A stretch of 64,000 bases of DNA from Collinsella aerofaciens (lineage in GTDB: Bacteria > Actinomycetota > Coriobacteriia > Coriobacteriales > Coriobacteriaceae): contig NZ_JADPCJ010000008.1 of NCBI RefSeq assembly GCF_015670795.1, forward strand, positions 1-64,000. The letters run 5' to 3'. Numbering within the stretch: position 1 is the first letter of the stretch; every line of letters starts with the position of its first letter. Shown in pieces: positions 30,291-44,961 of this stretch. The translations under genes were made by a program, and so were the position numbers. Below the pieces are notes generated by a model, which was not told where the DNA came from, did not search any database, and saw only the letters and a program-made list of their open reading frames with translations.

Positions 30291-30322
30291 GATGTGACAA
30301 AGGGCAGCCCCTTTGTCACATC
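30291..30322. repeat. Dispersed hairpin repeat, family B, copy 1
   Basis: GATGTGACAAAGG pairs perfectly with CCTTTGTCACATC across GCAGCC. A near-copy is at 44929-44961. It sits between the divergent TetR operon and the paralog cluster. Confidence 0.75.
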
Positions 30323-30332
30323 GAGCCGCTGC

Positions 30333-30354
30333 TTGGTCCCGTTAATGGGACCAA
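30333..30354. promoter_or_regulatory. Conserved inverted repeat in the leader of paralog 1
   Basis: TTGGTCCC-GTTAAT-GGGACCAA is a perfect 8-bp inverted repeat 53 bases before the start codon. The core CCCGTTAATGGGACCA recurs before paralog 2 at 32629-32644, and the following 45 bases also align, so the leader was duplicated with the gene and has been kept. Confidence 0.55.
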
Positions 30355-30406
30355 CAATCGCCGCACCCGTTGCATCATGTCGGTAACGACCGATAAGGAG
30401 GCCGAC

Positions 30407-32533
30407 ATGAACAATCAGGCAAGCGATGGCATCACCGATGCCGGCAAAGACCTCGTCCTCAGCTGCATCAAAAGCCAAGAGCTGCGCGACCACATGCGCA
30501 AATACTTATACTGGCCGGCGCCAATCATCGCCGGCTCTCTTAAGACGCTTGATGAAAAGCGCACCATGCTCGAGCAACTCCGCATGGAGGTTTCGCCGGA
30601 GCTGTTCGAAAATATCGACTCCCATCTCGCCCAGCTCAACAGCGCGCTCGACATGCTCAACAACGTCGAGCGCGACCGTGGAATCCTCCTGCTATACGTC
30701 ATGTTCTACAACGAGGAGGAGCGTGACGCCGACGCCCTTGACGGCCCCTTCCCCACCGCATCGTGGGACGCCGCACAAACGCTCATGAAGCGTTACATCG
30801 AAGAGTATCCTGACGACGACTGGTCCGAATCGTACTGGAAGATCAATCTCTACACCTCGGAAGATCTGCACGAGCACCAAACGGCGCAGCCCTCTCTGTC
30901 GTTTGCGGCCACCAAGGACGGCGAGCTCATATTCCTCCGCGATCTGCGCAATCACCGCACTCGCAAATCGCATGTCGAAAGCGCCTGGCAAAACGAAAGC
31001 AGGAGGTTCTGCGACAGCAACGAACCCATCTATACGCCGTGGGTCCCAGGCGACATCCTCAAAATCGACGGTCGCCCCTTCGATCACGGGCTTCGCTTTG
31101 CCATTGTGCTCGAAAACGACTACGAGCACACGCTCCGGGGGCAGATCTGGTGCGCAGGGCCTAGCAAAGATCACGGCGTTAAGGAGGGTTCACTTTCATC
31201 CGGCACCTACAGCGACAGTCTCCTGGACCCCTTCATCCCCTCCGCCCTCTATACCGCCGAGCGCTACACCGGCGAGCTGCCGGACGACTGCGCTTTTATG
31301 CTCGAGCTTTCGCAGAAGCTGCACGACAACCCCGACTACGGCAAGCAATGGTCCGAAGGCTCGGTCGGACACGATTGCCTGCAGCCGCACCGCAAGCCTA
31401 CCAGCCAAAGTGAGCTGGATATTCGTCCGGACATCTTTGAGTTTTTAGACTCGCACAGTATTAAGGAGCATCTTCAACGAATCAACTACGAGCTCACCAC
31501 GCCCGTAGCGGCTTTTATCGTCGACCGCTCGCATAAAGCGACATTGCAGCAAAAGCTTGAAGGCTGGCAAAAGATCATCGACACCATGCCCAATTGCGCC
31601 ATGAGCCGCAGAAATGACACGATCAACATCCCGGACTTCCATGCCTTTCTGCGCAATGTCATTAAGCAGGAGCACAGAAAGCTCGCACACTTTAAAAGGA
31701 CGGACGGTCAAAGCCTGTTTTTCTTTGATGACTACTCATGGGACCGGCGCGGGCAAGGCGGCTGTCTTTACGGCCCGTACAGCAGTTATCAAAAGTGCTT
31801 CGATGCAATCTGGAAAGAGTTCGACGGTGACGATCCCAAAGCCATCAGGATCACTCGTCGTCCCATCGACCCAGACGAAGACCACTATGCCGACGACATG
31901 GTCTTACTCAATGCGAACGGCGAAGTAATGTCTTGTGATTACCGCAACGAAAACGAGTGGGACGAGGATGGAACCACAAGCGATTTCGAGGACATGTGGT
32001 TTGATATCCCAACGCCCTTCCATGCCGGAGACATCGTCTGCAACCTCCAACGCCCCGACGAGCCGATGGTGCTGTTTGACCTGCAAACTTGGGGATCCGA
32101 ACGAGTCGACAAAGAGCTGGCCTCCTCCGTCTACAAAGAGCGCCTCGTGCAAAAGGCCGACAAGCTATTGCGTTGGCACCGATATGACGGCGACACCAGC
32201 GACATGTACGCCTACGGCTGCCAAGTCTCATCCGCCTTGCATTTCCCCTTCTACATTGGGGAGCCTGAGGGCTTTCTTTTGGACATCGACTATTACCGCA
32301 AGCCGCTCAAGTCAGAGGAGCGAATCCTTTACGGCGTCAGGGCATATGTCAAAGGCGACCTGGCGGTTGATTCGCTCGCCGCGATGGTCAGCGCATGCGA
32401 GCTACAGGCGCTGGCGGAGAAAAAGGCACGCGGCTTCGAGGACGCAGACGGTTGGCTCAAGGACCGCTATCCAGAGCTGTTCGATGCGACGGTTGAGCCT
32501 TTCTTAGAGGATGATTGCGGCAGTTGCGCTTAG
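30407..32533 (+). CDS. Unknown tandem-domain protein, paralog 1 (two halves)
   Basis: I do not recognise this 708-aa protein. It is cytoplasmic-looking: no signal peptide or membrane segment. The two halves (about 1-335 and 345-700) appear homologous, with the same order of blocks: a helical start with LRDHM or IKEHL; a GPF/GPY-S block before an Ala/Trp helix; a strand ending in DGEL or NGEV; then YTPWVPGDILKIDGRPF in the first half and DIPTPFHAGDIVCNLQRP in the second. The GDI-x-RP pattern resembles SH3-like barrels of the MazF/PemK type, but only weakly. AAGGAG lies 6 bases before the ATG. About 60% identical by eye to paralog 2, which follows. Confidence 0.8.
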   Translation: MNNQASDGITDAGKDLVLSCIKSQELRDHMRKYLYWPAPIIAGSLKTLDEKRTMLEQLRMEVSPELFENIDSHLAQLNSALDMLNNVERDRGILLLYVMFYNEEERDADALDGPFPTASWDAAQTLMKRYIEEYPDDDWSESYWKINLYTSEDLHEHQTAQPSLSFAATKDGELIFLRDLRNHRTRKSHVESAWQNESRRFCDSNEPIYTPWVPGDILKIDGRPFDHGLRFAIVLENDYEHTLRGQIWCAGPSKDHGVKEGSLSSGTYSDSLLDPFIPSALYTAERYTGELPDDCAFMLELSQKLHDNPDYGKQWSEGSVGHDCLQPHRKPTSQSELDIRPDIFEFLDSHSIKEHLQRINYELTTPVAAFIVDRSHKATLQQKLEGWQKIIDTMPNCAMSRRNDTINIPDFHAFLRNVIKQEHRKLAHFKRTDGQSLFFFDDYSWDRRGQGGCLYGPYSSYQKCFDAIWKEFDGDDPKAIRITRRPIDPDEDHYADDMVLLNANGEVMSCDYRNENEWDEDGTTSDFEDMWFDIPTPFHAGDIVCNLQRPDEPMVLFDLQTWGSERVDKELASSVYKERLVQKADKLLRWHRYDGDTSDMYAYGCQVSSALHFPFYIGEPEGFLLDIDYYRKPLKSEERILYGVRAYVKGDLAVDSLAAMVSACELQALAEKKARGFEDADGWLKDRYPELFDATVEPFLEDDCGSCA

Positions 32534-32628
32534 TTTTGAAACGCCACTACCAATTGTTCATTCAATACGCGCACACCCATGTACCAGTGCGTTTCCAGAA
32601 GTATGTTTGACGCGAGATTCATATCAGA

Positions 32629-32644
32629 CCCGTTAATGGGACCA
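32629..32644. promoter_or_regulatory. Conserved leader motif before paralog 2
   Basis: CCCGTTAATGGGACCA, the same core as in the leader of paralog 1, 54 bases before this start; the left arm of the inverted repeat is partly lost (GACCC instead of GGTCCC). Confidence 0.5.
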
Positions 32645-32697
32645 CAAAGCACAACCCCTGATGGATGCTAATGGCAACGACCGAATTGGAGATTGCT

Positions 32698-34830
32698 ATG
32701 GACAGCCAAGCAGATACCGTGATCACCGATGCCGGCAGGGAGCTCGTTTGCAGTTGCATCAAGGACGATGAGCTGCGTGCTCATATGTTCAAACACATGG
32801 GAATGGCAGATGGCTCCCTCTGTAAAATCATCGGCGGCTCCCTCAAGACGCTCGACGAAAAACGGACCATGCTCGAGCAGCTTCGCAAAGAGGCCTCATC
32901 GGATTACGCCGAGGCGATCGACTCCGGCCTCGAACAACTCGACACTGCACTCGATATGCTTTACAACGTTGACCGCGACCGCGGTATCTTGCTGGTCTCC
33001 GCCGTGTTTTACAGTGAAGAGGAGCGCGGGCACGACACCTTTGATGGCCCCTTCCCCGTTGCCTCTTGGGATGCCGCTCAAACCCTTATGAAGCAATACG
33101 TCGATGACGACCCCGATGAAGATTGGTCCGAATCATTCTGGCAGATTAAGCTCTATACCGCCGAAGACTTACACGACCGCCCGCGCGCTCAAGTCTCGCT
33201 GATATTCGCCGCGACCATGACGGGCGATTTGGTCTTTTTGAGCGACCGCCGGAATCAGCGGACTTCGCATCAAAGCATCGATCACTTGCCGTGGAACAAT
33301 AGCAAGCACTTCTGTGCCAATGGTGAGGTTTTCTACACTCCCTGGTCCCCCGGCGACATCATCAAGATCGATAGTCGGCCCTTCGACCACGGTCCCCGTT
33401 TCGCCATCGTGCTCGAAGACGACTACGATAGTTCGTTCAAAGGCCAGGTTTGGTGCGCCTATCCGAGCAAAATCTACGGCGTTGAGGAAGGCAATCTCCG
33501 CTTGAGGGATTTCACGGACGGCTTCCTCGACGACTTCACACCCTCTGCGCTCTACACCGCCGAACGCTATATCGGCGACTTGCCCGATGATTGTTCCTTT
33601 ATGCTCGAACTCTCGAAAAAGCTGCACGATGACCCCGGCTGTGGCAAACAATGGTCGGACGGATCGGTCGTACACGACTGCCTGCAGCCATACCGCACAT
33701 CGGCCGGCTCCGGCGCCAACGCCATACGTTCGGACATTCTCGAGTTTCTCGACTCACCCGACATCAAGGAACACTTAAAGGACATCGGCTACGAGCCCAC
33801 CACGCCCGAGGCGGCGTTCATCGTCGACCGTTCGAGCGAAAAGACGCTGCAACAGAAGATCGAGACTTGGCAAAAGATTCTCGAAAACATGCCCAATTGT
33901 GCGATGAACAGGCGATACGGCACGTTCAATATCCCCAACTTCCACGTCTTTCTCCGCGACGTCATCAAATGGGAGCGCAAGATAATTGCCCGGTTCAAAC
34001 AACCTGGCAAGCACATGTATTTCTTTGAGGACAAGACGGGAAGTCCCCATGAGAGCGGGTGCAATTATGGCCCCTACACCAGCTACGAAAAATGTTTCAA
34101 AGCAATCTGGAATGAACTTGAGGAGGAGAATCCTACCTCGATTGAAATAACACGCCGCCCAATCGATCCGGACGAAGACCACGATGCTGCCGACAGACTC
34201 ATGCTCAACGCGAAAGGCGAGATCATGGACTGCCAACTGCGCTGCATCGACAAGGAACGCGAGGGCGAAGACCCCACTTTCGCTTTTGTGTTGATGTGGT
34301 TTGACATCCCGACGCCATTCCACGCCGGCGACATCATTTGTCGTCACGGCGACCCTGGCGACCCCATGCTGCTTCTCAATATGCAGACATGGACCACGAA
34401 GCGGGTCATGGATGAGCTTCCGCCTTCCACTTACAGGGAATGCGCCGCAAAAAAGGCCGACGACCTGCTCAGGCACCATCGGCAAAATGGCGATGCGAGC
34501 GACATGTACGCCTACGGCTGCCAGATTGAATATCCCCTGGAGTACCCCGTCTATATCGGAGAGCCGAGTTGTTTTCTTCTCGATATGGAATACTGCCGTA
34601 CCCCGCTCAAGCCGGAGGCGAGAATTCTGTACGGCGTGCGGGCATATCTCGACGGCTATCTGGGTCTTGACTCACTTATTGCACTATCGAGCCTTTACGA
34701 GCTGCAGGCACTGGTCAAGAAAAAAGTCGAGTGGTTTGAAAGGGAAGACGGCAGGCTCAAGAGCTGCTATCCGGAGCTGTTCGATGACACGATAGCCCCG
34801 CTGGCACGATTCAAAACAAAGAGGAGCTAA
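32698..34830 (+). CDS. Unknown tandem-domain protein, paralog 2 (two halves)
   Basis: A 710-aa paralog of the preceding gene along its whole length; both begin with ITDAG, share SLKTLDEKRTMLEQLR near residues 45-60, GPFPVASWDAAQTLMK, YTPWSPGDIIKIDSRPFDHG, SALYTAERYIGDLPDDC, and in the second half WFDIPTPFHAGDIICRHGDP and AYGCQIEYPLEYPVYIGEP. No catalytic motif is apparent. The start at 32698 has GGAG 6 bases upstream. A 164-bp gap with the repeated leader separates it from paralog 1, and it ends 2 bases before paralog 3, so it heads its own unit. C-terminus KTKRS differs from paralog 1. Confidence 0.8.
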   Translation: MDSQADTVITDAGRELVCSCIKDDELRAHMFKHMGMADGSLCKIIGGSLKTLDEKRTMLEQLRKEASSDYAEAIDSGLEQLDTALDMLYNVDRDRGILLVSAVFYSEEERGHDTFDGPFPVASWDAAQTLMKQYVDDDPDEDWSESFWQIKLYTAEDLHDRPRAQVSLIFAATMTGDLVFLSDRRNQRTSHQSIDHLPWNNSKHFCANGEVFYTPWSPGDIIKIDSRPFDHGPRFAIVLEDDYDSSFKGQVWCAYPSKIYGVEEGNLRLRDFTDGFLDDFTPSALYTAERYIGDLPDDCSFMLELSKKLHDDPGCGKQWSDGSVVHDCLQPYRTSAGSGANAIRSDILEFLDSPDIKEHLKDIGYEPTTPEAAFIVDRSSEKTLQQKIETWQKILENMPNCAMNRRYGTFNIPNFHVFLRDVIKWERKIIARFKQPGKHMYFFEDKTGSPHESGCNYGPYTSYEKCFKAIWNELEEENPTSIEITRRPIDPDEDHDAADRLMLNAKGEIMDCQLRCIDKEREGEDPTFAFVLMWFDIPTPFHAGDIICRHGDPGDPMLLLNMQTWTTKRVMDELPPSTYRECAAKKADDLLRHHRQNGDASDMYAYGCQIEYPLEYPVYIGEPSCFLLDMEYCRTPLKPEARILYGVRAYLDGYLGLDSLIALSSLYELQALVKKKVEWFEREDGRLKSCYPELFDDTIAPLARFKTKRS

Positions 34831-34832
34831 CC

Positions 34833-35906
34833 ATGAACATCTTGGATTTTGTCGACTCCCGGGACATTCGGGAACACCTGCGCAGTATCGACTTCCAGCC
34901 CAACACCATCGAGGCCGCCTATCTGGTTTGGTTTTCGAAGACCGCCACGCTCGATCAGAAATGCGAAGCTTGGCAGGAGATCGTGCAAACCATGCCCAAT
35001 TGTTCGCTGGAGGCAACCCATGCCGGTCTTGGAAGGCCGGCCATCCCCGATTTCCATGCTTTTTTGCGCTGGACAATCGATTACAACAAGCGGTGCGTCG
35101 ATGCGTTTGCGAGTGGGACGGGCTACGTTTATCAGTATGAAGAGGAGATTGTGCCCGACGGGCAACTTTGTGGGGCCTTCGGCGCGCCATTCAGCTGTTA
35201 TGAGAAATGTGCCGAGGCGTTGCGCGGTGATGATGAACTTGCGAGCCGTCCAGAGGCACGCGTACGCATCACCCGGTACCCACTCGATGCCGACAAAGAA
35301 CATCGCCAGGAAGATTGGCTCATGGCAAACGGCAAAGGCGAGGCCCTTTCCGTTTATTGCCCTTCAGCCGGCCCCGTTGAGAACGATTGGGAGATCGCAT
35401 TCGAGTTCATCTGGGTCGATATCCCCACGCCGTTCCACACCGGCGACATCGTCTGGACGCCGCAGGGCAGTGACCGTGAGCCGTTCACGTTGTTCGATCT
35501 GCCCACGTGGGACCGGACAAAGCTTGAGGCAGAGCTTCGACAGGCAGACCGTTCTGACGAATGGCTTGATCATGCGCAGCAACGCCTCGAGCACTATCGC
35601 CATGCAGGGGATATCAGCAACATGCGTGCCACTGGTTGCTCGATTACCTACAACGAGACGTTTCCCTTCTACATCGGCGAGCCAGACCCGCTTTACCTAA
35701 ATCTTGAGTACTATCGCAAACCACTCGAAGACGAGCAGCGAATTTTAATCGCCGCCCAGGCCTACCTGCGCGGCGACCTGTATGTCGACTCACTCATCGC
35801 GTTTATCGACACCATAAGGATGGAGTCCAAGGCAAAGCGCAACCTGGAAGAACTACGTCTAGATCAGGCACCGCTCAAGGAGAAGTATCCGCAGCTATTT
35901 GATTAG
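34833..35906 (+). CDS. Unknown single-domain paralog 3 (matches the C-terminal half)
   Basis: The 357-aa protein aligns with residues from about 355 to the end of paralogs 1 and 2: it opens MNILDFVDSRDIREHLRSIDF where they read IFEFLDSHSIKEHL, and keeps DFHAFLRW, VDIPTPFHTGDIVW, FTLFDLPTW, ATGCSITYNETFPFYIGEP, YYRKPLEDEQRIL and the ending YPQLFD. It has its own ribosome site, AGAGGAG, inside the end of paralog 2, with only 2 bases between stop and start, so it is translated as a separate protein and not a broken end of paralog 2. Confidence 0.8.
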   Translation: MNILDFVDSRDIREHLRSIDFQPNTIEAAYLVWFSKTATLDQKCEAWQEIVQTMPNCSLEATHAGLGRPAIPDFHAFLRWTIDYNKRCVDAFASGTGYVYQYEEEIVPDGQLCGAFGAPFSCYEKCAEALRGDDELASRPEARVRITRYPLDADKEHRQEDWLMANGKGEALSVYCPSAGPVENDWEIAFEFIWVDIPTPFHTGDIVWTPQGSDREPFTLFDLPTWDRTKLEAELRQADRSDEWLDHAQQRLEHYRHAGDISNMRATGCSITYNETFPFYIGEPDPLYLNLEYYRKPLEDEQRILIAAQAYLRGDLYVDSLIAFIDTIRMESKAKRNLEELRLDQAPLKEKYPQLFD

Positions 35907-35914
35907 AGGCCGCC

Positions 35915-36949
35915 ATGTCCGAATCCACAAGAAGTCGCACCAATAACTCGGAGGCAATCGCGCGCGAAGAAATAATCAACCTTATCGAATCTCCGGAGCT
36001 GCGAGAGCATTTGCTGCATAATCCACAGCTACTGAGTGGCGATCATTACTCGCAAATCATCGGTGGCGCGTCGATAGAAATCAACCGCAAACGGGAGATG
36101 CTCAGCAGGCTGGTTGCTGCCGAGCGCAGCTCGTCAGACGATATCTTTTCTTGGTACGGACCAGAGATTTGTATCGACTACATCGATGACTGCTTGGACG
36201 CGCTAAAGGCCGTCGACGGGAACAGGAAGGTGCTGCTTATTAGCGAAATTAGCTTTGTCGACGACGAAGTGGGATCCGCCATCACGCATGGCCCCTTCCC
36301 CGTGGCATCGTGGCAGGCCGCCCTTGCGGCAATGAAGGCATACGCAGACAAGTGGAGCGAAATGACAGACTTATCGTCCTCATACTGGATGATCGAGCTG
36401 TTCAACCTTGCCAACGACCCGAGCTGTTCATATCCATACGACGGCTTTCTACAGCCAGACTTCACTTACTACGCAAACGCCTCCGGTGAAATCCAGTACA
36501 TCTGCAGGGAAGAAGAGGGCGAATGTGGCGAGGTGCTCGACTGCATTGTGGGTGGAATCTTTGGCCCGTGGTTCAAGGGGGCATATGTCGACCTGCCCAC
36601 GCCGTACAGAAAGGGCGACATTCTTGAGATCGACTGCCGGCCATGGGCGCCGGGACCTTGCTATTGCCTAGTAGCAAACTCGAAATTGGACTGTCTGTAT
36701 CCCGATGGCGATGGGCAGATCAGATGTGGCTCTATCCCCTACGGCAGCTGCTTTGCCGGATGGGCACACACGAACCTGATGCTGTCGCCCGTGTTTAGAG
36801 CGAAGAAAGTAACGCAGCCCTTGCCGGAAGAACGCACGGCATTGCAAGAGATCAAACTGGACCGGATAGATGACTTGCTAGAAACGTGCACCGACAACAA
36901 AGAAGAAGAACCCGGCTGGTTGGATATATATCGGCATCGCTCGCGTTGA
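35915..36949 (+). CDS. Unknown single-domain paralog 4 (matches the N-terminal half)
   Basis: The 344-aa protein aligns with the first half of paralogs 1 and 2: LIESPELREHLLHNPQLL, IIGGASIEINRKREML, GPFPVASWQAALAAMKAY, SSYWMIELFN, then VDLPTPYRKGDILEIDCRPWAPG. It is the most diverged member. Eight bases separate it from paralog 3; ribosome site weak (AGAGG). Paralogs 3 and 4 together carry both domain types in reversed order (C-type then N-type) compared with the fused proteins. Confidence 0.78.
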   Translation: MSESTRSRTNNSEAIAREEIINLIESPELREHLLHNPQLLSGDHYSQIIGGASIEINRKREMLSRLVAAERSSSDDIFSWYGPEICIDYIDDCLDALKAVDGNRKVLLISEISFVDDEVGSAITHGPFPVASWQAALAAMKAYADKWSEMTDLSSSYWMIELFNLANDPSCSYPYDGFLQPDFTYYANASGEIQYICREEEGECGEVLDCIVGGIFGPWFKGAYVDLPTPYRKGDILEIDCRPWAPGPCYCLVANSKLDCLYPDGDGQIRCGSIPYGSCFAGWAHTNLMLSPVFRAKKVTQPLPEERTALQEIKLDRIDDLLETCTDNKEEEPGWLDIYRHRSR

Positions 36950-37031
36950 CGGGAGATGCGGAAAACCGCAGCGATCCCCATCAGCAGGTCTTGCCCATAT
37001 CTCAATTCAGCATTCGAATCTTCATAGATAC

Positions 37032-37062
37032 GAAAAAGGCCGTGCCCAAACCAGGCACGGCC
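37032..37062 (-). terminator. Terminator of the orphan gene at 37188-38312
   Basis: GGCCGTGCC and GGCACGGCC with a 7-base loop; on the minus strand TTTTTCG follows. The 3' side of the paralog cluster has no separate strong terminator; the 238-bp gap between the genes holds nothing else visible. Confidence 0.75.
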
Positions 37063-37187
37063 CAAGAACGTGAATCAGAATATCTTTGGGCGAAGTGAAA
37101 GCATCTTGAGCCGCCCAAGTTCTGCACATTATGTCGAACTTGAGCGAGGCTTTCCCATTGCCAATCGACGCTAATCTTTGCGACGAT

Positions 37188-38312
37188 TTATTTCATCTTA
37201 TCCTTTGCCTTGTCAAGACGACTGCCCTTGAAGAAATACCAAATCATCAGGTCGACTTCATGGAAGCCAATATCTGGGGCGGAGCCGTTATTTGAACCAA
37301 CCGTCTGGTTTTCCTGCTTTCGCCACTCATTGATACCATCAACGATATGGCTGTAAAGGTCGAGGTATCCCAGGTAGCCCCGAGCGACCTGGGCGTCAGC
37401 GTTTTCAACATCCTCATCGGGCGTGGCAACCAGTTTATTAATCGTGCCTCTAATCCATGCGTATCGGTTTCCATAGCGGCTCAATGGAGTGTCATTGTAT
37501 TTTTTACACCATTCGTTAAGCCACTCACTCTCATTGCTACCGTAATCAATATAAGCATCCGCATAATAAGGAAGCATTGTGCCGACAACCGTGTCATAGA
37601 TGCAGAAGTTGTCCGTATCATAGATATAAGAGCCGTTCACCTCACGCCTGCTTAGATTGCGACAACCATGGTGGCAAAACTTTGTTGCAAAGGAAAAATT
37701 ACTTCGATTGCACTTAAGGTCGCTAGGGTCCTCTTCCGGCAATAGTTTATAAGTCATATTTGTTGTAGCGCGCGCGATGCTGGCAACGAGATTCGCTCGG
37801 AACTCAAAGTCTTTTTCCAACAGGCTAGACCCCAGTTTATTATTATTCGCATACTGGCTCACAAGATATGCGGCAGTTATAAGTGTTCCGCCAGTAAGCT
37901 CGGCTTCGCCCTCATCCCCCTTTTCACCACTACCGCCTTGCGGATCCTCTTTGATTTCGCAAAGCCGTTTGAGCTCGGCATTCGTCTTGCCCATTAGCTT
38001 ATCTTGGTCACCCTTTACCGTCACTGCAGCCAAGTGCGTCGAATTCATTTTATTAGTAAAATAAACAGCCTCCCGGATGGCGCAGGCGTCGCCGTTCGAG
38101 GCATCCACATACTTGTCGTGAATTGTGCCCTGATCAATCCATGTGTAATTCGAATCGTTATTTACGAGACCGTTCACAAAGGCGATGTTCTTATCGCTAA
38201 AAACCGGAAAACTGTTCTGGTCTAAATCAAACTCGTAATACCTATCCGGATGAAGCGAAGCCTCAATGGAAGGAACGATTCGCCTAACGTTCCGATCTTT
38301 ACGTGTTGTCAT
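37188..38312 (-). CDS. Orphan protein of unknown function, low GC
   Basis: The 374-aa soluble protein is clearly less GC-rich than its neighbours (many AAA, AAT, TAT codons), a sign of recent transfer. A Gly/Glu-rich linker (GGSGEKGDEGE, about residue 125) separates an N-terminal third from a helical C-terminal part. The segment SFATKFCHHGC, followed about 20 residues later by NFCIYDTVVGTML, resembles the SFxTKYC-(x)n-PIYDS motif found in many uncharacterised bacterial proteins, some in defence contexts; this is recall of a pattern and not a confirmed match. AAAGGAACG precedes the ATG. Transcribed toward the paralog cluster. Confidence 0.6.
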   Translation of the reverse strand: MTTRKDRNVRRIVPSIEASLHPDRYYEFDLDQNSFPVFSDKNIAFVNGLVNNDSNYTWIDQGTIHDKYVDASNGDACAIREAVYFTNKMNSTHLAAVTVKGDQDKLMGKTNAELKRLCEIKEDPQGGSGEKGDEGEAELTGGTLITAAYLVSQYANNNKLGSSLLEKDFEFRANLVASIARATTNMTYKLLPEEDPSDLKCNRSNFSFATKFCHHGCRNLSRREVNGSYIYDTDNFCIYDTVVGTMLPYYADAYIDYGSNESEWLNEWCKKYNDTPLSRYGNRYAWIRGTINKLVATPDEDVENADAQVARGYLGYLDLYSHIVDGINEWRKQENQTVGSNNGSAPDIGFHEVDLMIWYFFKGSRLDKAKDKMK

Positions 38313-38469
38313 TGGACGTTCCTTTCTGAATCTGGCAGAAGCCCGCTCGCCTTTGTCCTCTATTTGATGGTAATTCTTAACCCGCTTAAACGTATCTTCT
38401 TGGCTGTTGAGCGGTCATTTTCTGCTGATAGACGCACTGCTGGCCGAGCAGTTGTTACTTGCTATGACC

Positions 38470-39300
38470 TCAACCGAAGACTCGTGCGCAGAAAGGCTCC
38501 ATGCCATCGGCACTCATGCGGACGAGGGCATCTGCGTTGCAGTGGGCCTCGGCGAATTCCGCGTCGTCCTCTCTGCCCTCCGCCGCGAAGCAGCCTACCA
38601 GGATGGCGGATGTTGGACTGAGCATGTTGCGCAGGTCGCGCAGGATTGCATTTACCGGGCGGTTGTCATCGAACATTTCGAGTCCGTCGATTACGACTAC
38701 GATGTCCTTTAGCACTGCTCTGTTCCACGTTTGGTCGCCGAGCAACCAGCTCGTTAAAAGGTCCATGGTCATGTTGTCTTCGGCAAAGATGCCCAAGTTG
38801 CGCTGCTTGAGGCGCATCGTTGCGCGGATTGCCTCAACCTGTTGCTCCTCAAGATCCGCCGGCAGCTTGACGCCCATCTCGGCACGAATAAGCCGAGCAA
38901 TCGCATCCTCTTCACGCTCCCGAATCGGCACGTAAAGCACGGCGCACTGCTCACTCAGGCGCAGCACCGCGTGTGCCAGCACGTTCGAAACGTCTTCATG
39001 CGCACCGCCAATCACGCTGAGCTTGCCCAGCCCAACGCCGCCACCTAGGGCGTCATCGGCCGACATGCCGGCTTTCAACAAGCGCGGAGCTGCGAACAGT
39101 GACGTTTCCACACCACGGTCGAGTCCAGAAGCCAGTCGATTGTGAAACCCGCTGAGGTCAAAAGCCTCGTCATCACGCTCTCCACGATTCCCGCCGCACC
39201 GATTCGCGGACGGCGGCATCACGCCTGGTAGGCCCAGCATCTCGCCCAAACTCGCAGAACGGCCAATTCGGTTGTCCCTGGAGTCCATCTTTCGCGTCAT
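38470..39300 (-). CDS. DnaB/RecA-like protein with degenerate P-loop
   Basis: A 276-aa protein resembling the C-terminal RecA-fold domain of DnaB-type helicases: LGGGVGLGKLSVIGGAHEDVSN sits where the helicase reads G-x-L-x-I-I-A-A-R-P-S-M-G-K-T, so the Walker A GKT is replaced and ATP binding is doubtful. A Walker B-like IVVVIDGLEMF and a following RDLRNMLSP helix are retained. The first 70 residues are probably disordered. TAGGAGGG before the ATG at 39300. It lies 10 bp after rtcB in the same operon, so it may act with the RNA ligase. Confidence 0.6.
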   Translation of the reverse strand: MTRKMDSRDNRIGRSASLGEMLGLPGVMPPSANRCGGNRGERDDEAFDLSGFHNRLASGLDRGVETSLFAAPRLLKAGMSADDALGGGVGLGKLSVIGGAHEDVSNVLAHAVLRLSEQCAVLYVPIREREEDAIARLIRAEMGVKLPADLEEQQVEAIRATMRLKQRNLGIFAEDNMTMDLLTSWLLGDQTWNRAVLKDIVVVIDGLEMFDDNRPVNAILRDLRNMLSPTSAILVGCFAAEGREDDAEFAEAHCNADALVRMSADGMEPFCARVFG

Positions 39301-39310
39301 CGCAACCCTC

Positions 39311-40408
39311 CTAACGCCTACCGCGCTTACCAGTAGCCTTAAAATTCCAAATCGGCTTGAGTCGGTGAATAACATCAACCGTCGGGTCCATGAGTCTCAG
39401 TACATCATCCGCAGGTTTATACGCTTCGGGCGACTCATCGAGCGTCGTCTCGCATGCGCTCGGACAGTAGATGCCGGCATCGCGCATCTCGTTAACGAAC
39501 GACCTGGTATCGAGCGTTTGGAACGCTTTTGTGCGGCTCATCGCGCGACCCGTCCCGTGTGGCGCCGAGCAGTTCCAGTCCTCGTTTCCCTTGCCGCGCG
39601 CAATAACGGCACCGTCGCGCATGTTGAACGGAATCAGCACCATCTCGCCCGCATGAGCGCTAATAGCGCCCTTGCGAATCATGCCATCTTCCGAGATGTA
39701 GTTGTGCATGGTGGTAAAGCCGTCTCCGTCAAGTCGAATTCCCGTACGCTCAACAATCTGTGCGACAATCGCCTTGCGGTTCTGATTCGAGAAGCGTTGG
39801 CAGTTATGCATATCGACGAGATACTCGGCAGAAAGATCTCCCACGAGATACTTAAGCTCGTCGGGGATATCTGCCGCGCACGTCTTCTGCGCCAGTGCCT
39901 GATGGTGCTCCGCCGTCTGCTTGCCCATGTTGCGCGAGCCGGTGTGCACGACCAGATATTGGCACCCATCCTCGTCCTCGTCGAGTTCAATGAAGTGGTT
40001 GCCGCCGCCCAGCGTACCCATGGAGCGCTCAACCTTGCGTTTATCCTGCAGCCAATCGCGCGACTCCATGTCAAAGTCCGCGAGTGCGCAGGCAGGATCG
40101 CGATGAAGGCTAAAGCCCGTGGGCACCGCGCGCTTCACATCGCGATTGAACTGAATGAGGTCGTCGCGCGCGATGGTTTCCGCAAGCGGCACGCAGTACA
40201 TCCCGCATCCGATGTCGACCCCAACCAGGTTGGGAATCACCTTGTCGCCCAAGTTTGCCGTAAAGCCAATCACGCAGCCCTTGCCCTTATGGGCATCGGG
40301 CATGATGCGGATCTTGGCGCCTTCAAACGCCGGGCAGCTGGAAATCTCCTCGATCTGCTCCCTGGTTGAATCCTCAAGATTCTCGGCAAAGACTTTGATG
40401 TCTGCCAT
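39311..40408 (-). CDS. rtcB: RNA-splicing ligase RtcB
   Basis: The 365-aa enzyme joins RNA 2',3'-cyclic phosphate or 3'-phosphate ends to 5'-OH ends using GTP and Mn2+. Key motifs are MPDAHKGKG (36-44), GVDIGCGM (63-70, with the metal-binding Cys68), GTLGGGNHFIEL in the centre, VVHTGSRNMGK, and CSAPHGTGR whose histidine is the guanylylation site. It is slightly shorter than the E. coli enzyme, as in many bacterial RtcB2-type proteins. CAGGAG precedes the ATG at 40408. It heads a two-gene operon with the DnaB/RecA-like gene and is divergent from a WYL regulator. Confidence 0.95.
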   Translation of the reverse strand: MADIKVFAENLEDSTREQIEEISSCPAFEGAKIRIMPDAHKGKGCVIGFTANLGDKVIPNLVGVDIGCGMYCVPLAETIARDDLIQFNRDVKRAVPTGFSLHRDPACALADFDMESRDWLQDKRKVERSMGTLGGGNHFIELDEDEDGCQYLVVHTGSRNMGKQTAEHHQALAQKTCAADIPDELKYLVGDLSAEYLVDMHNCQRFSNQNRKAIVAQIVERTGIRLDGDGFTTMHNYISEDGMIRKGAISAHAGEMVLIPFNMRDGAVIARGKGNEDWNCSAPHGTGRAMSRTKAFQTLDTRSFVNEMRDAGIYCPSACETTLDESPEAYKPADDVLRLMDPTVDVIHRLKPIWNFKATGKRGRR

Positions 40409-40560
40409 CGCATTTCTCCTGTTCTGATCCTTGTAAACCGGAACCGGCCCCAAGCCAACAGAGTGCACGTCACACCAACCAGCCAAACCGCCGATTTCCG
40501 TTTAACCACCTTTCGCCCTATTCGGGCCCTTATTGCTGCGAATACTACGGTCGCGCGGGC

Positions 40561-40566
40561 TACAAT
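40561..40566 (+). promoter_or_regulatory. Candidate -10 element for the WYL-helicase operon
   Basis: TACAAT, 64 bases before the GTG start; no clear -35 box. The remaining part of the 222-bp divergent region shows no gene. Confidence 0.35.
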
Positions 40567-40630
40567 GAGTCCCAATAACGGGTCTTGTTTTGCATCTCCG
40601 GCTGATACCCTGCCGGCGAAAGGAGACAAC

Positions 40631-41641
40631 GTGGCGAACAGACCAAACCAAAAGCTCAGGCTTCTGTTCCTGCTTAAAACCTTGATGGAAAAGACCGACA
40701 GCACGCACGGACTCACGACGCAGCAGATCATCGAGGAGCTCGCCTATCACGATCTCGAGGCCGAACGAAAGGCCATCTATCGCGACCTGCAAACGCTTCG
40801 CGACTTCGGGCTCGACATCGACCAGCGCGGTGGCAAGGAATGGGCGTTGGTCTCACGCCCGCTCGACCTGCAAGAACTCATCATGCTTGTTGACGCCGTG
40901 CAGAGTTCGCCGTTTTTGACCGATGAGCTGACCGACCACCTCATCGGCAAACTACAGAGCCTCGCCAGCCTGGACGAACGCGAGCTGATGCACAAGCGCG
41001 TCGACGTGCCTTCGCGTGTGAAGATGCAAAACTCCGATGCTCTGCACAATATCGACTTGATTCAGCAGGCTATGCGCGAAAAACGCAAGATTCGGTTTCG
41101 TTACTTCCACTACGACGCCGCCAAGCAAAAGGCCCTTAATCATGACGGAAAGACCTACGAGCTCACACCCGTGCGTCTTATCTACTCCGACGAACTCTAT
41201 TACATGATTGGGTTTAGAGATAAATGGGCCAACGCCGGCTCGGGCCATCAGCCGTTCACGCCCTACCGCGTCGATCGCATGCTCGACGTTGCGGTGTCCG
41301 AAGAGTCCGCGACCAAAGATCCGCGTATCGCGGGCTATGTGCTCGAAGATCACGTCTCTCCATCATTCGGCGTATATGCAGCCAACAAAACCACCATGGT
41401 GCTGGAACTCGACGACCGCGCGATGAATCCGCTCATCGATAAGTTCGGATTGGACGCCGTTGTGTTTGAAAACCAGGATGGGCGCCTGTTAGCAACTGTC
41501 AAAGCCCCGCTGTCGCCGCAGTTCTTTGGCTGGCTGCTGCAACTCAGCACCTTCATTAAGATCGTTCAGCCCCAAAGCGCCATCGATACGTATCTCAAAT
41601 ATCTCGACGACACTCGGGCACTTTACCAGGAAGACAGGTAA
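40631..41641 (+). CDS. WYL-domain transcriptional regulator
   Basis: The 336-aa protein has an N-terminal helix-turn-helix (about residues 5-65, LRLLFLLKTLMEK to AIYRDLQTLRDFGLDI), a central WYL domain beginning near IDLIQQAMREKRKIRFRYF with LTPVRLIYSDELYYMIGF, and a C-terminal WCX-type extension. WYL regulators often sense nucleic-acid fragments or nucleotides and control DNA repair or defence genes. Start is GTG at 40631 with AAAGGAG 5 bases upstream. Six bases separate it from the helicase-nuclease gene, so it surely regulates or co-expresses with it. Confidence 0.92.
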   Translation: MANRPNQKLRLLFLLKTLMEKTDSTHGLTTQQIIEELAYHDLEAERKAIYRDLQTLRDFGLDIDQRGGKEWALVSRPLDLQELIMLVDAVQSSPFLTDELTDHLIGKLQSLASLDERELMHKRVDVPSRVKMQNSDALHNIDLIQQAMREKRKIRFRYFHYDAAKQKALNHDGKTYELTPVRLIYSDELYYMIGFRDKWANAGSGHQPFTPYRVDRMLDVAVSEESATKDPRIAGYVLEDHVSPSFGVYAANKTTMVLELDDRAMNPLIDKFGLDAVVFENQDGRLLATVKAPLSPQFFGWLLQLSTFIKIVQPQSAIDTYLKYLDDTRALYQEDR

Positions 41642-41647
41642 TATTTC

Positions 41648-44600
41648 ATGGCTACAACCCCTAAATTCGATGAATCGTTTAAGAACCTGAACCCCGAACA
41701 GCGCGAGGCCGTCGAATGCCTAGATGGCCCGCTGCTCGTCATTGCCGGTCCCGGCACCGGCAAGACGCAGCTACTGAGCCTGCGCGCGGCGAACATCCTG
41801 GCCAACCGCGATGTCGCCCCGCGCAACATCCTCTGCCTTACCTATACCGAGGCGGGCGCGGAGGCCATGCGCAAACGCCTGATTGAGCTGATTGGGCGCG
41901 ACGCCTACGGCATCGAAGTCAGCACGTTCCACGGATTTGCAAGCAGCATCAGGTCGCGCTATCCCGAGTTTTTCACACGCCCTGCGACCGACACGCTCGT
42001 CACCAGCCTGCACCAGCAAGAGATTTTTGACCGCCTGCTCAAATCGCTTCCCTTTGGTTCTCCGTTAGACGGAGGGTCACCTGATATGCCCGCGCAAAAT
42101 ATCGGCAAGATGATCAGCTTTGTCTCCAAGGCTAAGCGCAGCGGCCTGGACTACGACACGCTGGGCGCCATCGCGCAGCAGAATATCGACGCCGCTGTCT
42201 GGCTCACCGAACATTCCGAGCTGCTTACGCTCGCCTGCGAAAGGGCAAGCGCCGCGTTGGCCGAACGCTTTGAGGAAGAGGCCGAGCGTGCCTGCGGCAT
42301 GGCGCCCACATCGCTCACCCGCCCGATCGACTGTCCCGCCGGTACGTACGTGCCGTACATTCTTGAGTTGCGCGACGCCGTTCGCCGCACCGAACTTATT
42401 GACGAGAAGGGAAAGTCGTCGGGATACACCAAGGTGCGCGATGCCTTCTTTGGAGGCAGCAACTCTCAGGGACGCACCTTTAAGATTGCGGAGCAGAGCG
42501 AGCGACTTAAGACCGCTTGCGACGTCGCGCGTCGCTACCAGAGCGAGCTCGACCAGCACCATCTCTACGATTACGACGACATGATTGGCGATTTTGTTGA
42601 CGCCGTCGAACACAATGACGCGTTGCGCCAAGTACTCCAGGACACCTATACCTATATCCAAGTTGACGAGTTCCAGGACACCAATGGTGCCCAGATGCGC
42701 ATCATCGAGCTGCTCTGCGACGGCGTTGATGCGCCCAATATCATGGCCGTCGGCGATGACGATCAGGCCATCATGCGTTTTCAGGGTGCCACGATCGAGT
42801 GCGCCAACCAATTTGCAGCCGAGTTCTCGCCCCGGAGCATCGTGCTCAAGACCAACTATCGCTCCACGCCCGCCATCGTTGAGCTTGGTCAAGCTATCGC
42901 ACGCCAAATTGAATATCGCCTCGACGCCAGCTCGAATAAGTCAATCGAAGCCTCCAAGCCTCAGGGTGATCAGGTCGGCTTTAGCGAGAACGTCTACGCC
43001 GGCAAAGCCGAGGAATACGCCGCTGTCGCTGCGAGCATTAAGCAGCGGCTTGTTAATCACTATCTCGATGAATGCGAAGATCCCAACGAAGGAATTGCAG
43101 TCATCTCCGCCAAGCACGCCGCCTTGCGCTCGCTGATTCCCTTCCTCGTTAAGGAGAAGGTACCCTTTTCGTATCGCGAGCGGCAGAATCTCTTTGCTTC
43201 CGAGCGTATGCAGACGATGCTGGCACTGTTGCGCTGCGTTACCGCGCTTGCTCGCGGGCAGAAGGAGCTCGCCAGCAGCTATCTTCCGCAGATTGTCTGT
43301 GCCGCCGAGCTGGGCGGCGACCATCCATCGTCCGTGACGTTTGCGCTCAGTGCCAAGCGCGAGCATCGCGGCGACTGGATGGCCGCCATGTGCGAGAGTA
43401 ATAGCGCCCGCGTCAAAGAGCTGTACGACGACCTTATGCAGTGGGCGGCCGAGGCCGGCGCCTCCCCGGTCAGAGCGTTGCTCTTTAAGATTCTCAAACG
43501 CAGCCTTGACTATTATCAGGATCATAAGAAACAGGATCCGCTGGGCGCCGCCGAATTCAATGCCGGCATCCGCGCCCTACTCACCTTTGCTGAGGGTGAA
43601 ATGGGCGACGCGCGCCGCATGGGACGCACGCTTCGCCTGCCCGATATTGTCGACAAACTCGACGCCGCGCAAAAGTTTGGCGTGAGCATCGACGCATCGA
43701 TCGATCTTGGCACACCGGGAGCCGTTCGACTTACTAGCGCTCACAGCTCGAAAGGTCTGCAGTTCGATTGCGTCTACCTGCTCGACGCCGACGACTCCAC
43801 CTGGCACAAAGGTGCTGGCGGCATGAGTCTGTACCCGTCCAACCTGCTTATTCGCGACGAAAAGGATGACGACGATGCGCGCCGTCTGCTGTTTGTAGCC
43901 ATCACACGCGCTAAGCGACACCTCGAGCTCTACCGCGCCGGAGGATCGGCGCTGCAGGAGCTCACGGGGCTTATCGACTCTTGCGAGGTTTCTGCCAAAG
44001 CGGACCAGCTCAGTGCCGCCATCGAAACCGAATGGCGCGACAACTACGTGTTTGATACGCCCGAGCTCCGTGCGCTTTTGGATCCTCACACCGACGTAAA
44101 ACACCTCTCTGCCACGGCACTCAACAACTTTGTGACGTACGAGCCTGGATGCGCAAATAGCCAGCACTTCCCCGAGAAGCAGATTGTGCGCCTACCCACT
44201 GCGCCCACGATTCAAACCGAATTCGGCACTATCGTTCACGCGATGTTCGAAGAAATCGTTAATCGGATGGCAACCGATGGCGCGGCGGCAATTGAGACAA
44301 TTGAGGCCGAGTATCGCCAGCAGATTTCGTGGCTCGATTTTGCCCCCGAGGACGTCCATCGCTATTCGGACCGCTTCGAACGCATTTGTAATGCATTCGT
44401 CCCTTGGCTTGTCGAGCACGTACGTGGCTACCGTTGCATCACGGAAGCGAACATGCAGTGTCTAACTGCCGGTGGAACTCCACTCTTTGGTTTTCTTGAC
44501 CTGCTCCTCGTTGACGATGCAGCTAAGACGGTGCAGATCGTCGACTACAAGACTGGCTTTGGCAAAGAAATCCCTGCAGGCTACCATCGTCAGCTCAAGT

Positions 44601-44935
44601 TTTACAAACTGCTGGTCGAAGCGTCACCCGAGTTTTATGGCTACACCGTCACCTCCATGGGCGACTACTATGTAGAACCCGACAAGACGACGGGCGAGCT
44701 CCGCCCGCCGTTCGCGACAACCGCCAACGCCGTTGACATTGCCGAACTCGAGCAGCTCATCGATGCCACATGGGCTCGCATTGAACACGGTGCTTGGGAT
44801 ACCAGCGCTTTTGAGCAGAGCGATGCCTATGAGCTTGCCATCGAGGAGCAGAAGGGCTGCCGCAAAAAAGCCGATAAAACCGAGGTCATGCAGCGTGCCT
44901 ACGAGCACTGGCTAATTGAGAACTCTAGAATGTGA
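41648..44935 (+). CDS. UvrD/Rep-type helicase fused to a PD-(D/E)XK nuclease
   Basis: The 1095-aa protein carries all SF1A helicase motifs: Walker A AGPGTGKT (33-40), motif Ia TYTEAGAEAMRKRL, motif II VDEFQDTN, motif III VGDDDQAIMRFQGA, NYRS, motif V SAHSSKGLQFD, motif VI LLFVAITRAKRH. The last quarter is a RecB-like nuclease: FGTIVHAMFEE, GFLDLLLVDD, VQIVDYKTG (about residue 963) and QLKFYKLL complete the active site. It should unwind and cut DNA in repair or defence, similar to AddA/PcrA-Cas4 fusions. No AddB partner is near. Second gene of the WYL operon. Confidence 0.92.
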   Translation: MATTPKFDESFKNLNPEQREAVECLDGPLLVIAGPGTGKTQLLSLRAANILANRDVAPRNILCLTYTEAGAEAMRKRLIELIGRDAYGIEVSTFHGFASSIRSRYPEFFTRPATDTLVTSLHQQEIFDRLLKSLPFGSPLDGGSPDMPAQNIGKMISFVSKAKRSGLDYDTLGAIAQQNIDAAVWLTEHSELLTLACERASAALAERFEEEAERACGMAPTSLTRPIDCPAGTYVPYILELRDAVRRTELIDEKGKSSGYTKVRDAFFGGSNSQGRTFKIAEQSERLKTACDVARRYQSELDQHHLYDYDDMIGDFVDAVEHNDALRQVLQDTYTYIQVDEFQDTNGAQMRIIELLCDGVDAPNIMAVGDDDQAIMRFQGATIECANQFAAEFSPRSIVLKTNYRSTPAIVELGQAIARQIEYRLDASSNKSIEASKPQGDQVGFSENVYAGKAEEYAAVAASIKQRLVNHYLDECEDPNEGIAVISAKHAALRSLIPFLVKEKVPFSYRERQNLFASERMQTMLALLRCVTALARGQKELASSYLPQIVCAAELGGDHPSSVTFALSAKREHRGDWMAAMCESNSARVKELYDDLMQWAAEAGASPVRALLFKILKRSLDYYQDHKKQDPLGAAEFNAGIRALLTFAEGEMGDARRMGRTLRLPDIVDKLDAAQKFGVSIDASIDLGTPGAVRLTSAHSSKGLQFDCVYLLDADDSTWHKGAGGMSLYPSNLLIRDEKDDDDARRLLFVAITRAKRHLELYRAGGSALQELTGLIDSCEVSAKADQLSAAIETEWRDNYVFDTPELRALLDPHTDVKHLSATALNNFVTYEPGCANSQHFPEKQIVRLPTAPTIQTEFGTIVHAMFEEIVNRMATDGAAAIETIEAEYRQQISWLDFAPEDVHRYSDRFERICNAFVPWLVEHVRGYRCITEANMQCLTAGGTPLFGFLDLLLVDDAAKTVQIVDYKTGFGKEIPAGYHRQLKFYKLLVEASPEFYGYTVTSMGDYYVEPDKTTGELRPPFATTANAVDIAELEQLIDATWARIEHGAWDTSAFEQSDAYELAIEEQKGCRKKADKTEVMQRAYEHWLIENSRM

Positions 44936-44961
44936 CAAAGGCGCTGCCCCTTTGCCACATT
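44929..44961 (+). terminator. Dispersed hairpin repeat, family B, copy 2; probable terminator
   Basis: AATGTGACAAAGG pairs (one mismatch) with CCTTTGCCACATT. It overlaps the helicase stop codon and the last bases of the convergent HAD gene, and matches the element at 30291-30322. Confidence 0.7.

Follow-up and report, generated by a model that had tools for sequence, protein, structure and literature searches.

Four head-to-tail genes of Collinsella aerofaciens, here called A-D, encode members of a protein family that is new, being unnamed in the libraries searched, and sit on a 14.6-kb acquired island (30322-44930) of the window, the whole 64,000-nt stretch of DNA that was analyzed. The island, which also carries an RtcB RNA ligase and was absent from an earlier, sequence-only reading of this DNA, is a variant of known RtcB/WYL conflict islands. 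The reading we favor, tentatively, makes A-D accessory factors that bind proteins and belong to an RtcB/WYL island responding to RNA damage or to conflict. The features, in window coordinates, are as follows.

30291-30322, no strand: left boundary; perfect 32-bp palindrome GATGTGACAAAGGGCAGCCCCTTTGTCACATC, REP-like and dispersed in the genome; the empty sites end here
30407-32533, + strand: gene A, 708 aa; N-type domain (1 to ~345) fused to a C-type domain (~346-708)
32665-34830, + strand: gene B, 721 aa; N-C fusion, paralog of gene A
34833-35906, + strand: gene C, 357 aa; C-type standing alone
35915-36949, + strand: gene D, 344 aa; N-type standing alone
37188-38312, - strand: 374-aa protein of no known family; variable slot
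38470-39378, - strand: RadA/DnaB-like protein, 302 aa; weak match
39311-40405, - strand: RtcB RNA ligase (PF01139, E 1e-60); ORF start possibly 40486
40463-41641, + strand: WYL-WCX transcription regulator, divergent from RtcB
41648-44935, + strand: UvrD-like helicase with a C-terminal PD-(D/E)XK nuclease domain; runs a few bases past the boundary
44929-44961, no strand: right boundary; second, imperfect copy of the palindrome

The sequence-only reading had described a head-to-tail cluster of four paralogs, and the four plus-strand ORFs and their pairwise BLAST comparisons bear this out. Gene A has an alternative in-frame ATG at 30377, but the AAGGAGG at 30394-30400 favors a start at 30407. The intergenic gaps are 131 bp (A/B), 2 bp (B/C), and 8 bp (C/D), which makes B-C-D a tight operon. 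All four genes are syntenic in three sister genomes with 85-95% identity, gene B carries a frameshift in G026, one of the sister genomes, and dN/dS between sister species (0.12-0.25, vs. 0.02-0.11 in flanking genes) indicates that A-D are constrained and evolving somewhat fast. They are real genes under purifying selection, and they are the only members of the family in this genome. As had been noted before, no enzyme motif is visible in A-D and no signal peptide or transmembrane segment is evident, the highest 19-residue hydropathy being 1.41; the lack of an export signal and the ordinary character of the selection speak against a surface-variation system, which had also been suggested. The pI of A-D is 4.6-4.8, and that of most family members is 4.5-5.6.

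Searches of A-D against Pfam, NCBIfam, PHROG, and PADLOC gave no accepted match (for PADLOC, none at E up to 1), some of these libraries were also tried with remote relatives and gave none, and profiles of N, C, and the barrel returned only chance matches from PDB sequences, so that the description of the family as unrecognized still stands. Plasmid and phage tblastn searches yielded nothing except two chance Rhizobium matches. Scans of viral contigs found one contig, a predicted provirus, that contains two tandem C-type genes with YspA-SLOG and a metallophosphatase upstream of them. In a 296-genome sample of the phylum, members were found in Coriobacteriales only; the homologs expected in other Coriobacteria are thus present, and the family seems restricted to Coriobacteriales among the sampled Actinomycetota, plus the viral contig. 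Similar unnamed proteins presumably occur in gut Clostridia. No mention of Collinsella together with RtcB was found in the literature searched.

Judged by their sequences, A-D are one family, with pairwise similarity far beyond chance (BLAST: A_N/B_N, 61% identity, E 6e-158; A_C/B_C, 58%, E 6e-147; A_C/C, 40%, E 1e-81; B_N/D, 28%, E 1.5e-28). Gene C pairs with the C-terminal halves and gene D with the N-terminal halves; the two are not copies of one half. Profiles of the two types, built from remote relatives, aligned over 280 columns (hhalign Prob 97.3, E 2e-11), and on this evidence N and C are mutually homologous, in keeping with the common ancestry earlier proposed for the two halves. A maximum-likelihood tree shows a clean N/C split (support 96/90) in which A_N+B_N is sister to D and A_C+B_C is sister to C; several remote branches are long and their deep positions unsure. 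This topology implies an old N/C duplication, after which the N-C pair was fused and duplicated in Collinsella. In Coriobacteria other than Collinsella, N and C are encoded by separate genes that lie next to each other, either an N gene followed by a C gene with overlapping ends (G327) or convergent neighbors (G095, G258, and G307). Among the carriers in 397 Coriobacteriales genomes, N occurs in 12, C in 14, and both in 8. That N and C are fused in one lineage and adjacent in others suggests that they act together. The residues invariant over both types are one K, one P, and a GD, and nothing else, which, with the acidic pI, fits a protein-binding over a catalytic role without proving it.

Structures were predicted for each half; an alignment of the full-length fusion put D in the wrong place. 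The AlphaFold models, made from shallow alignments (14 and 12 rows), have a mean pLDDT of 70 for gene C (~85 for its first 190 residues) and 68 for B_N. Their secondary structures correspond element for element: in both models, four to five helices are followed by two strands and a single helix, then by three strands and the PxxxGD strand, with a Y-x3-Y-x3-L helical segment at the end. The predicted plan shared by N and C has a helical domain at the N terminus, followed by an alpha+beta domain and a 'PxxxGD' barrel, and ends in a helical tail. No Foldseek match in the PDB or BFVD reached an E below 0.001. Of the SH3-like barrel of the MazF/PemK type that had been weakly suspected from the sequence, a weak signal is seen in the N type only, whose barrel, modeled with moderate confidence, resembles HspQ (Z 6.3 over 76/77 residues) and faintly MazF (Foldseek E 0.84); membership of MazF/PemK is not supported, PF02452 being absent for A-D at hmmscan E up to 5. 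The central domain of both models is weakly similar to the RbcS/SSUL-like alpha+beta fold (Z 5.7 and 5.2), at a level (Z < 8) that may reflect a common arrangement alone, and these matches were considered too weak for a claim of kinship. For the C-type model, a resemblance to small phage proteins (DUF7336, for instance) was seen as well. Neither these phage proteins nor RbcS/SSUL share a context with A-D, and both similarities are below kinship level.

The island is missing from the eight Collinsella sister genomes checked, all of which lack A-D. In these empty sites, the flanks left of 30321 and right of 44930 are joined directly (L082) or through unrelated DNA that ranges in length from a few hundred bases to ~4 kb, and the L082 site contains a single palindrome copy, common to both flanks, where the occupied site has two. 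The G+C content changes from ~0.60-0.65 outside to 0.51-0.58 over most of the island, and no integrase was recognized on it. The REP-like palindrome is dispersed in Collinsella genomes and is a possible recombination site. Four empty sites (L077, L078, L079, and L080) have a 370-700 bp segment in the island's place, with an apparent ~40-aa hydrophobic peptide that has a basic tail and is type I toxin-like.

The active-site motifs of the island RtcB (GVDIGCGM, GGNHF, HTGSR, HNY, and PHG, read in the sequence) are intact, and RtcB family protein and release_rtcB are among the NCBIfam models that it matches below their cut-offs. No PrfH/RF-1 domain was found among the island proteins scanned, and neither a CARF protein nor CRISPR-Cas was recognized on the island. 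The slot of the 374-aa protein holds a 35% identical allele in G026 and G038 and McrBC instead in G039; the alleles, at 34-35% identity, lie at 37188-38312 of the window, L044:4337-5380, and L047:7155-8189, and McrBC lies at L045:3920-6644. The window copy of the RadA/DnaB-like gene has a degenerate P-loop region, and in the sister G039 the gene carries a stop. A DnaB_C protein in G284 (L091:10429-11391) occupies a similar position beside RtcB, making two bacterial families in which this arrangement is seen. Between the window and G046, UvrD is 64%, RtcB 42%, and WYL 24% identical. The same kinds of partner (WYL, and UvrD or RtcB) recur near the family in G046 and in G258, from another bacterial family, along with a ShosT/PsyrT-like phosphoribosyltransferase. 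In G280, RtcB and a true PrfH lie between two N-type genes with YspA-SLOG nearby, and it is in G280 only that PrfH beside the family was confirmed. Macro domain proteins with 52% identity occur in family neighborhoods of two bacterial families (L047:12847-13434 and L041:6780-7367), one of them inserted between A and B; a CbxX-type tandem AAA protein (L043:5819-8722) lies near a C-type gene, and an FtsH-like AAA + M41 peptidase protein (L072:9685-11103) lies near an N-type gene and RtcB-PrfH. These neighbor lists are incomplete, and the simple gene caller sometimes takes antisense shadows in GC-rich loci.

RtcB is present in 59 of the 397 Coriobacteriales genomes and the family in 18, with RtcB in 9/18 carriers vs. 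50/379 non-carriers (Fisher p = 3e-4; p = 0.06 when collapsed to genera). In all nine genomes that have both (G000, G026, G038, G039, G046, G258, G280, G394, and G314, about five lineages), the two are 0.7-5.3 kb apart, that is, within 5.5 kb in genomes of ~1.5-2.3 Mb, and this distance is stronger evidence for a link than the co-occurrence. Within the genus, RtcB was found in 5/5 family-bearing genomes vs. 1/40 others. When 20 other RtcB loci were inspected, an unsuspected member of the family was found at one (G314), and G095 and G307 keep the family at the same locus without RtcB. That half of the carriers lack RtcB argues against strict dependence.

Taken together, the homology of N and C, their fusion or adjacency, the proximity of RtcB, the clean island with its empty sites, and the acidity of the proteins favor an accessory role, as do RtcB-PrfH between N-type genes in G280 and the recurrence of WYL with UvrD or RtcB in G046 and G258. 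We propose that A-D are soluble, acidic, and probably non-enzymatic proteins whose N and C modules would act in pairs, either within a single chain (A and B) or as two subunits, C possibly heterodimerizing with D. They would serve as accessories on a conflict or RNA-damage-response island that was acquired horizontally, is perhaps controlled by its WYL protein, and has RtcB as its best understood enzyme. The likeliest mechanism is protein binding, in which the N-C unit would recognize a partner, whether a damaged component of translation, a toxin that cleaves RNA, or an enzyme of the island, and would help repair or protection to act there. This proposal is weakened by the nine carriers without RtcB, the genus-level p value, the RtcB-less loci of G095 and G307, and the single member among 20 other RtcB loci. 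To our knowledge, acidic proteins are atypical RNA binders, which we also count against it.

Among known systems, the RtcB2-PrfH ribosome-repair operon (PMC9223846, which also deals with E. coli and colicin E3; PMC6514570) resembles the island in its RtcB, which belongs to the same broad class, occurs sporadically, and has spread horizontally, and in the arrangement of G280, where N-type genes flank PrfH and RtcB. The window island differs in that no PrfH was found and a WYL regulator is present. RtcB-PrfH systems accumulate uncharacterized accessory genes (PMC6514570), but those accessory proteins are zinc-ribbon or positively charged, whereas A-D are acidic and multi-domain. WYL regulators are predicted nucleotide-ligand sensors in conflict systems (PMC4012209), which the island recalls by having WYL-WCX beside RtcB and nuclease/helicase genes; it differs in that no CARF or CRISPR-Cas was recognized and that A-D are a new family.

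Islands gather unrelated cargo, and the linkage to RtcB may therefore reflect shared residence. The family could then be defense or anti-defense cargo in its own right (an antiphage sensor or a decoy, say), residing on the same islands as RtcB but not cooperating with it, a possibility nearly as likely as an accessory role. It would account for the carriers without RtcB, for the two tandem members on the predicted provirus contig, and for the neighboring McrBC (in the slot by D, G039), macro (G038 and G307), ShosT/PsyrT-like phosphoribosyltransferase, YspA-SLOG, RelE-like TA, and PD-(D/E)XK genes; however, A-D have no PADLOC match, and proximity to RtcB in about five lineages is beyond what passive cargo readily gives. 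Of the earlier suggestion of a defense component, the defense or conflict context is supported by the neighbors (RtcB, WYL, the McrBC allele, macro, phosphoribosyltransferase, and SLOG).

Immunity proteins had also been raised by the sequence-only reading; that A-D are an orphan array of them against secreted polymorphic toxins appears improbable. Diverged, acidic, soluble tandem paralogs, a variable adjoining slot, and selection somewhat relaxed relative to flanking genes would suit it, but no toxin gene was recognized by any member among the annotated neighbors (several neighbors are unannotated), a fixed pair of two homologous domains is seldom seen in immunity proteins, and the A-D set is conserved in four species. 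Least credible, and very improbable, is a toxin array in which the PxxxGD barrel would serve as an active endoribonuclease of the MazF/PemK kind. The N-type pattern GDI-x-IDxRPF-x-G-x-(R)FAIVLEND, which we take to recall MazF and treat as a lead only, the short GD[IV] strand pattern, and the weak barrel matches point toward it; yet, besides the missing profile match, no R or T is conserved across N and C, proteins of 350-720 aa are far above MazF size, no PF02452 gene occurs anywhere in the genome, and no cognate antitoxin gene was seen in the operon, nor was an antitoxin-like small ORF noted between its genes; a toxin-antitoxin arrangement is lacking.

Returning to the accessory role, its broadest form, which we regard as doubtful, would make the N/C proteins a new type of component of bacterial RNA repair: a new family of non-catalytic factors, acting in pairs, by which an RtcB/WYL response to RNA damage is directed or gated both in Coriobacteria and in mobile elements. 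If the link to RtcB is true, A-D would belong, unrecognized so far, to the means by which gut bacteria mend RNA that is cut by toxins or in phage attack, and the island would provide a defined gene set for testing. Even without that link, A-D constitute a new protein family with an unusual evolution, in which two homologous modules have repeatedly been paired by fusion or adjacency.
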